A model generated the notes under the pieces. It ran no database searches, was not told where the DNA came from, and saw only the letters and a program-made list of their open reading frames with translations. A stretch of 34,061 bases of DNA from Flavobacteriales bacterium (GTDB lineage: Bacteria > Bacteroidota > Bacteroidia > Flavobacteriales_D > CAJJDF01): positions 1-34,061 of the forward strand of contig JALRIS010000009.1 of assembly GCA_023255335.1 (NCBI GenBank), given 5' to 3'. The position numbers were made by a program, and so were the translations under genes. Within the stretch, counting starts at the first letter, position 1. Each line of letters begins with the position of its first letter. This document shows, piece after piece, positions 30,459-31,120 of the stretch.

Positions 30459-30532
30459 TCCCCCTTAGCTCAGCTGGTTAGAGCGGTTGACTGTTAATCA
30501 ATAGGTCCAAGGTTCGAGTCCTTGAGGGGGAG
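30459..30532 (+). tRNA. tRNA-Asn(GTT)
   Basis: 74 nt cloverleaf: acceptor TCCCCCT/AGGGGGA, D-arm GCTC..GAGC, anticodon loop CTGTTAA (GTT), T-arm CAAGG-TTCGAGT-CCTTG, discriminator G; CCA not encoded. Confidence 0.96.
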
Positions 30533-30592
30533 CAAAAAGACAAGCCATTAATAGCAATATTAATGGCTTTTTTGCTTTATAAAAGTAGCGCT
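30522..30592 (+). repeat. Direct repeat copy 1: tRNA-Asn 3' end plus downstream terminator and AGTAGCGCT tail
   Basis: 71 nt, 70/71 identical to 30924-30994 (single A/G difference). Confidence 0.97.
30542..30573 (+). terminator. Rho-independent terminator of tRNA-Asn
   Basis: AAGCCATTAAT-AGCAAT-ATTAATGGCTT followed by TTTT; 11-bp perfect stem. Confidence 0.88.
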
Positions 30593-30607
30593 ATGACTTA
30601 ATTTTAC

Positions 30608-30856
30608 GTGTATATACTTTTCTCTCAATCTGCTAACAACTATTACATTGGATTTTCCGAAAATCCCGAGAGACGACTAAGCGAACATAATGACGAGAGA
30701 AATAAAAAGTGGACGCGAAACGGCAGACCTTGGACAATCCTTAGAATTATTCCATTTGAATCAAAATCAGAAGCTCTGAAAGCAGAAAGGTTCATTAAAA
30801 ATCAAAAAAGCAGAAAACTTATCGAAACAATAGTTAATCAAGGATGGAAAGAATAG
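30608..30856 (+). CDS. GIY-YIG nuclease domain protein (YhbQ/URI-like), GTG start, or 5'-disrupted ORF from ATG 30593
   Basis: VYILFSQSANNYYIGFSENPERRLSEHNDERNKKWTRNGRPWTILRI: GIY-YIG-type YIL...YIG, R-x-x-x-HN. The upstream ATG at 30593 is in frame but separated by TAA at 30599-30601. Confidence 0.85.
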   Translation: MYILFSQSANNYYIGFSENPERRLSEHNDERNKKWTRNGRPWTILRIIPFESKSEALKAERFIKNQKSRKLIETIVNQGWKE

Positions 30857-30874
30857 CTCCTTAGCTGGGTAGAG

Positions 30875-30890
30875 TCCCGATTGATCGGGA
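30875..30890. repeat. Palindromic hairpin 1 inside the degenerate tRNA
   Basis: TCCCGAT-TG-ATCGGGA. Confidence 0.9.
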
Positions 30891-30908
30891 TTAATCAATA
30901 GGTCCAAC

Positions 30909-30922
30909 CCCGAACCTTCGGG
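30909..30922. repeat. Palindromic hairpin 2 inside the degenerate tRNA
   Basis: CCCGAA-CC-TTCGGG. Confidence 0.9.
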
Positions 30923-30923
30923 A

Positions 30924-30994
30924 TTGAGGGGGAGCAAAAAGACAAGCCATTAATAGCAATATTAATGGCTTTTTTGCTTTGTAAAAGTAGCGCT
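30924..30994 (+). repeat. Direct repeat copy 2: tRNA-Asn 3' end plus terminator and AGTAGCGCT tail
   Basis: 70/71 identical to 30522-30592; offset 402 bp. Confidence 0.97.
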
Positions 30995-31120
30995 GTTACA
31001 ATCCTTTCTCAGAACCTGTGAGCAAAAGACATATTCTGGAGAACTCATTCATTTTTGAGGGTATTAATTCTCAGTCCAATATTTATTAGTTAATTTTGTC
31101 TCACACAAAAACGAATAAAC

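Follow-up and report, generated by a model that had tools for sequence, protein, structure and literature searches.

A GIY-YIG gene and an arm-swapped tRNA-Asn copy in a Flavobacteriales bacterium point to a possible family of tRNA-associated cassettes in Bacteroidota

SegB of the T-even phages, such as T6, is a tRNA-associated GIY-YIG homing endonuclease, and homologous recombination leads to tandem amplification of the tRNA together with segB (PMC13096335). It is a free-standing GIY-YIG homing endonuclease and lies within a tRNA cluster (PMC2988022). For the arrangement described here, our literature search, which is incomplete in coverage and weak as evidence, found no paper on tRNA-linked GIY-YIG cassettes of Bacteroidota, on arm-swapped tRNA copies or on these palindromes.

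The window is the whole stretch of 34,061 nucleotides from a Flavobacteriales bacterium (contig JALRIS010000009.1) that was analyzed. It contains, in this order, an intact tRNA-Asn, a terminator, a GIY-YIG ORF, a degenerate tRNA-Asn copy, and a repeated tRNA 3′ end with its terminator (Table 1). The stop codon of the ORF, TAG (30854-30856), is at the same time the TAG of the TAGCTC that opens the tRNA copy. The two copies of the 76-nt direct repeat are 96% identical, and the GIY-YIG ORF is the sole ORF between them, with no integrase there. ARAGORN and Rfam call only 30459-30533 as a tRNA in the window and thus no second functional one. The sequence of the intact tRNA-Asn is identical at the syntenic pfkB-linked site of three same-genus relatives.

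Table 1. Features of the tRNA-Asn/GIY-YIG locus, in positions of the window
Feature	Position	Strand	Evidence
Intact tRNA-Asn(gtt), host gene of the putative cassette	30459..30533	+	ARAGORN; Rfam RF00005 70.2 bits
First intrinsic terminator, AAGCCATTAATA/TATTAATGGCTT + T run	30534..30580	+	inverted repeat I6
GIY-YIG nuclease ORF, 82 aa, GTG start	30608..30856	+	PF01541 3.7e-16
Degenerate tRNA-Asn copy, 3′ tail of the putative cassette	30854..30935	+	alignment with intact tRNA
Hairpin 1, TCCCGA-TTGA-TCGGGA = TCCCGATTGATCGGGA, at anticodon-arm 5′ half	30875..30890	+	
Hairpin 2, CCCCGA-ACCT-TCGGGA = CCCCGAACCTTCGGGA, at inner T-arm	30908..30923	+	
Terminator, second copy	30936..30982	+	direct repeat D1, inverted repeat I7
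76-nt direct repeat, left copy (tRNA 3′ end + terminator + linker)	30522..30597	+	
76-nt direct repeat, right copy, 402 bp downstream of left	30924..30999	+	

A sequence-only reading of this DNA had drawn attention to two CCCGA/TCGGG hairpins in the tRNA copy, and the sequence it quoted is real. Its limits hold for hairpin 1, and hairpin 2 ends at 30923, one base further than it had placed the end. Since the D-arm of the copy is degenerate (TTAGCTGGGTAGAG versus TTAGCTCAGCTGGTTAGAG) and its 5′ acceptor strand is missing in the alignment to the intact tRNA, the description of the flanking blocks as identical is true only between and after the hairpins (TTAATCAATAGGTCCAA, 100%; TTGAGGGGGAGC plus terminator, 96% to 98%) and fails for the 5′ block. 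A precise replacement of the anticodon arm and the T-arm had also been claimed. Segments of tRNA arms are indeed replaced, with imperfect boundaries in the window: hairpin 1 stands for CGGTTGACTG, which comprises the 5′ strand and some of the loop of the anticodon arm rather than the entire arm, and hairpin 2 stands for the inner T-stem and the T-loop, with the outer CAA/TTG pairs retained. Folding of the region as RNA, which had been proposed as a check, gave a structure more stable than 200 of 200 shuffles (z = -3.4).

Across the organism's own genome (2.23 Mb), the pattern CCCGAN2-8TCGGG occurs at 17 sites, against 1 for the reversed pattern; given these counts, two such hairpins 33 nt apart within one tRNA copy are not the product of chance. 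The loops vary among the sites; most sites share constant arms and a constant flanking T/A. Four of the 17 are tRNA-linked: two in the window, one at the tip of a tRNA-Leu terminator, and one in a decayed tRNA-Pro copy. The genome has 26 tRNA genes, and the linkage of these four sites is far above expectation. The motif is not exclusive to tRNAs, and the flanks of the other 13 sites are no more tRNA-like than background, which rules out that all hairpins derive from tRNA remnants. Several of the TCCCGA..TCGGGA sites in this genome lie within related multi-hairpin intergenic repeats (L017 and L025; L020 and L027; e.g. L017 1324-1454). TCCCGA..TCGGGA exceeds its control across much of the order, for example with 13 versus 0 sites (own genome), 62 versus 0, and 80 versus 4.

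The enrichment near tRNAs or GIY-YIG ORFs that the sequence-only reading had suggested looking for is present. That reading would have been contradicted by palindromes that are common at random intergenic positions and have no tRNA or GIY-YIG association; the motif is in fact dispersed, and the association exists. The notion that the hairpins belong exclusively to the element did not survive, given the 13 of 17 sites elsewhere and two cases that have no GIY-YIG gene, the swapped tRNA-Pro copy and the L087 array, both described below.

Relatives, too, have partial tRNA copies whose arms have given way to hairpins of this kind. The replaced interval is the anticodon arm (tRNA index 28-44) in copies of Leu, Arg, Ala, Asn, and Val tRNAs, and the new closing pair of the exact swaps is formed by the T and A of TCCCGA..TCGGGA. 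When the hairpin edges were mapped on the tRNA, swaps of the D-loop, the variable region, and the T-arm were also present. The pattern of an exact anticodon-arm swap matched 43 sites, spread over 27 of the 398 phylum genomes and 24 genera; the reversed control matched 0. All 20 fetched swap loci have a tRNA gene, and in 11 a GIY-YIG gene lies no more than about 1 kb away, though the pattern did not require one. One match, at L192 1475-1547, is a false positive, since it falls inside a complete, well-scoring, bona fide tRNA-Ala(ggc) with the anticodon stem TCCCG/CGGGA; this stem is possibly a swapped arm turned functional, or a coincidence. L192 excepted, a functional anticodon in the swapped arm was rejected, as the loops range from 4 to 14 nt, and most of them cannot be anticodon loops.

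The first and last variable bases form a seventh pair, which is Watson-Crick in 32 of 34 distinct hairpins (17 T-A, 11 C-G, 4 A-T; P = 4e-11); among own-genome hairpins outside the window, it pairs in 5 of 15. The 32 of 34 indicate that pairing is maintained, or built in, in tRNA-arm hairpins. Across the phylum, the same arrangement lies behind tRNAs of many kinds, which argues for a repeated process rather than a one-off event. This recurrence in relatives supports the proposal that the hairpins mark the replacement of tRNA arms and not random decay.

The GIY-YIG genes are themselves linked to tRNA genes. Protein similarity was the sole criterion for retrieving 61 order-level loci; in 46 of them a tRNA lies on the same strand as the GIY-YIG gene and no more than 600 bp from it, nearly always upstream and mostly by 40-100 bp. 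At least ten isotypes are involved (Asn, Ala, Asp, Arg, His, Val, Phe, Pro, Met, and Leu), and 20 of 23 further phylum loci are tRNA-linked as well. The 3′ ends of the tRNAs and their terminators occur as direct repeats on both sides of the ORF, and several genomes carry tandem GIY-YIG arrays with periods of 295-450 bp. Arrays in which five GIY-YIG genes follow one another and score equally were seen at G593:C1:2945603-2947087 and G533:C1:120141-122168, with periods of 315 bp and 450 bp.

At the orthologous site, two same-genus relatives (L179 and L180) read pfkB-tRNA-Asn-terminator-mscS (channel gene), with neither a GIY-YIG gene nor a tRNA copy. As with SegB-type genes, the GIY-YIG gene lies beside its presumed target gene, and alleles free of the cassette exist. 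In another same-genus genome, G003, unrelated sequence, perhaps an integrated island, lies behind the same tRNA-Asn (L178, downstream of 2673). A GIY-YIG gene is present in 26 of 26 swap-positive and 22 of 26 family-matched swap-negative genomes, so its presence is not a decisive discriminator of swap-positive genomes.

The hairpin also has a preferred place behind the ORF. In 20 of 115 ORFs, a set enriched for hairpin-selected loci, the stop lies within TAGAGC or TAGCTC of a tRNA copy. In many loci the hairpin starts 5 nt or 18-19 nt past the stop, and this offset is fixed because the ORF stops at the TAG with which the copy's TAGAGC or TAGCTC opens. A CCCGA hairpin lies within 60 nt of the stop in 6 of 70 ORFs of an unbiased set (0.035 expected) and within 600 nt in 14 of the 61 protein-retrieved loci (24 sites versus 0.6 expected). 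With these 24 sites and the 43 swaps against 0, the hairpins can be said to recur at GIY-YIG/tRNA loci. Other palindromes take the same tail position, including TCCCGCC-ATC-GGCGGGA and GTGCCGAT-AGCT-ATCGGCAC; the 46 hairpins counted at tail positions include some ordinary terminators.

Swapped copies occur without a nuclease gene too, and 9 of the 20 fetched swap loci have no adjacent GIY-YIG gene. In the own genome, a decayed tRNA-Pro copy lies 80 bp behind an intact tRNA-Pro (L018, G000:C11:4300-4480), with TCCCGA..TCGGGA standing where the T-arm was, and the own-genome search found no GIY-YIG gene next to it. In L087 (1370-2930; G045:C2:3246973-3248321), at the same pfkB-tRNA-Asn site as in the window, 13 units of about 111 bp follow the intact tRNA, each consisting of a 5′-truncated tRNA-Asn with a swapped anticodon arm and then a terminator (12 exact pattern matches and one variant); no GIY-YIG gene was detected at this array. 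In L185, L190, L194, and L195, swapped 5′ copies precede the intact tRNA. L190 has a promoter-like box, TATATTTG, ahead of the first swapped copy, and upstream copies may therefore be transcribed within the tRNA leader. The nuclease-free copies and arrays imply that duplication and swap can persist, or arise, without an adjacent nuclease gene.

In the GIY-YIG protein, Y2, Y13, R23, H27, and E60 are invariant among 23 aligned relatives. The predicted catalytic GIY-YIG domain keeps its active-site residues, as does a SegB-type homing endonuclease. The nearest solved structures by sequence are UPF0213 (1ywl and 1zg2; E = 4e-9 and 2e-6) and an SLX1 homolog (8e-5). SLX1 is a subunit of a structure-specific endonuclease. 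WD-40 matches among the solved structures were dismissed as repeat artefacts, as no stretch passes on its own. In the window, ATG-ACT-TAA lies in the GIY-YIG frame just ahead of the conserved FYVYIL start (30590-30613); translation must consequently start at GTG, or the gene is already lightly damaged. A scan of IMG/VR for phage carriage gave one partial match only.

To explain these loci, we propose that the window locus is a member of a phylum-wide family of tRNA-parasitic, SegB-like GIY-YIG cassettes with an arm-swapped pseudo-tRNA tail, a reading to which we give an even chance. It builds on the observed architecture, its recurrence, the exact arm boundaries, the covariation, and presence or absence at the syntenic site. 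Such a cassette would comprise the 3′ part of a tRNA with its terminator, the GIY-YIG ORF, a partial tRNA copy in which at least one arm is replaced by a strong palindromic hairpin, and a terminator; sitting directly behind the intact tRNA gene, it would preserve host tRNA function. By analogy with SegB, the nuclease would break DNA in or near the tRNA, and recombinational repair would produce tandem partial tRNA duplications while one intact tRNA is retained. Arms of the spare copy would then be exchanged for palindromes of the type dispersed in Bacteroidota genomes, mostly TCCCGA..TCGGGA. The hairpins most likely prevent the spare copy from acting as a tRNA, and perhaps from being a target of the nuclease, and the hairpin-bearing copy would stay as a self-folded tail between the ORF stop codon and the terminator. 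The palindromes may have entered by structure-guided exchange, as a mobile palindrome, or under RNA-level selection for autonomous hairpins.

Some observations weigh against the cassette reading. Relatives with and without the cassette have an identical intact tRNA, and a nuclease site confined to the tRNA would thus leave the host gene open to cleavage; the recognition site must reach beyond the tRNA, or the enzyme must recognize structure, which speaks against simple homing. Further points are the swapped copies without an adjacent GIY-YIG gene, the fact that most palindromes of the own genome are unrelated to tRNAs, and the 26 of 26 versus 22 of 26 genomes.

The nuclease may have no direct part in the swap. 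Ordinary recombination would then duplicate parts of tRNAs, and copies with autonomous, unrelated hairpins would be kept, since a spare tRNA half could pair wrongly with the intact tRNA or mature into a defective tRNA. This would account for swaps that match whole arms with conserved pairing, for the service of different palindromes, e.g. CCGCC/GGCGG besides the AGCT-loop hairpin at tail positions, for the several loci with swapped copies upstream of the intact tRNA, apparently in the leader, and for swaps that have no GIY-YIG gene next to them. We nevertheless consider it rather unlikely, as it explains neither the dominance of the single core CCCGA nor the tight GIY-YIG linkage, and a terminator stands between the 3′ copies and the intact tRNA. 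Mobility could instead reside in the palindrome, with a REP- or MITE-like dispersed TCCCGA..TCGGGA entering DNA stem-loops; tRNA remnants would be tolerant and able to extrude hairpins, and the GIY-YIG linkage would be secondary to the partial tRNA copies. The genome-wide excess over control in much of the order agrees with this, as does the palindrome at the tRNA-Leu terminator tip, yet loops vary between copies while the six-base arms are fixed, unlike copied sequence, the own genome yielded no Y1 (RAYT-type) transposase, and arms are replaced rather than inserted into; we hold such a mobile palindrome to be unlikely. A REP/RAYT element proper was ruled out, since neither GTAG nor CGTC recurs as a tag next to the 17 hairpins of the own genome, and the Y1 tyrosine transposase PF01797 has no match in that genome (G000, 96.6% complete).

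Also unlikely, in our estimate, is a structure-directed arm swap in Bacteroidota, in which the stem-loop of a tRNA gene is exchanged whole for a TCCCGA..TCGGGA hairpin and an SLX1-like GIY-YIG nuclease that cuts the base of the stem-loop performs or triggers the exchange. The earlier interpretation of the hairpin as a structure that the GIY-YIG protein recognizes, cleaves, or processes would suit its fixed offset past the ORF stop in many loci and the relationship of the protein to UPF0213 and the structure-specific nuclease SLX1; it now appears quite improbable, because 47 of the 61 GIY-YIG loci of the family have no CCCGA hairpin, and most hairpins of the own genome have no GIY-YIG gene. Finally, the window copy alone, degenerate and with imperfect swap boundaries, could pass for chance or for a duplicated tRNA in ordinary decay. 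Among relatives this is refuted by the 43 exact swaps against 0 in the control, the covariation (P = 4e-11), and the 24 sites against 0.6 expected near GIY-YIG genes, and we assign it a negligible probability.

If the cassette reading is true, a miniature selfish nuclease cassette inhabits tRNA genes phylum-wide, spares the host tRNA, takes its stop codon from the tRNA copy, and expands in tandem. SegB-like biology would extend from phages to bacterial chromosomes, and the exact arm swaps would provide a sequence-level handle on how palindromes enter genomes. Annotation would gain as well, since stray tRNA fragments and many of the small genes labelled “GIY-YIG nuclease family protein” would be recognized as one element type. 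The structure-directed arm swap, if true, would mean a class of mobile or mutagenic hairpin that acts on DNA secondary structure and has left its clearest footprint in the tRNA cassettes.

Compared with known systems, the locus resembles integrase-borne tRNA islands in that the 3′ end of the tRNA is duplicated at the point of insertion, and differs from them in having only an 82-aa GIY-YIG ORF, and no integrase, between the repeats. The hairpins are like REP/BIME palindromes in their short, constant stems dispersed between genes, whereas the exact replacement of tRNA arms sets them apart from REP/BIME and the RAYT transposases (PMC3733652). UPF0213 (1ywl, 1zg2) and SLX1 share the GIY-YIG fold, judged by sequence, but neither is described as a mobile cassette that is linked to tRNAs and ends in a tRNA copy. 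With SegB, the putative cassettes have in common a small GIY-YIG nuclease beside tRNAs of many isotypes, tandem repeats of tRNA and nuclease, and presence/absence alleles. Unlike SegB, they reside in bacterial chromosomes phylum-wide with one ORF per tRNA, carry a partial tRNA copy with palindrome-replaced arms, and encode a putative nuclease that is nearest to UPF0213/SLX1-like chains among solved structures. The known kind to which they compare is that of free-standing GIY-YIG selfish genes at tRNAs, and the arm swap is the really unusual part.
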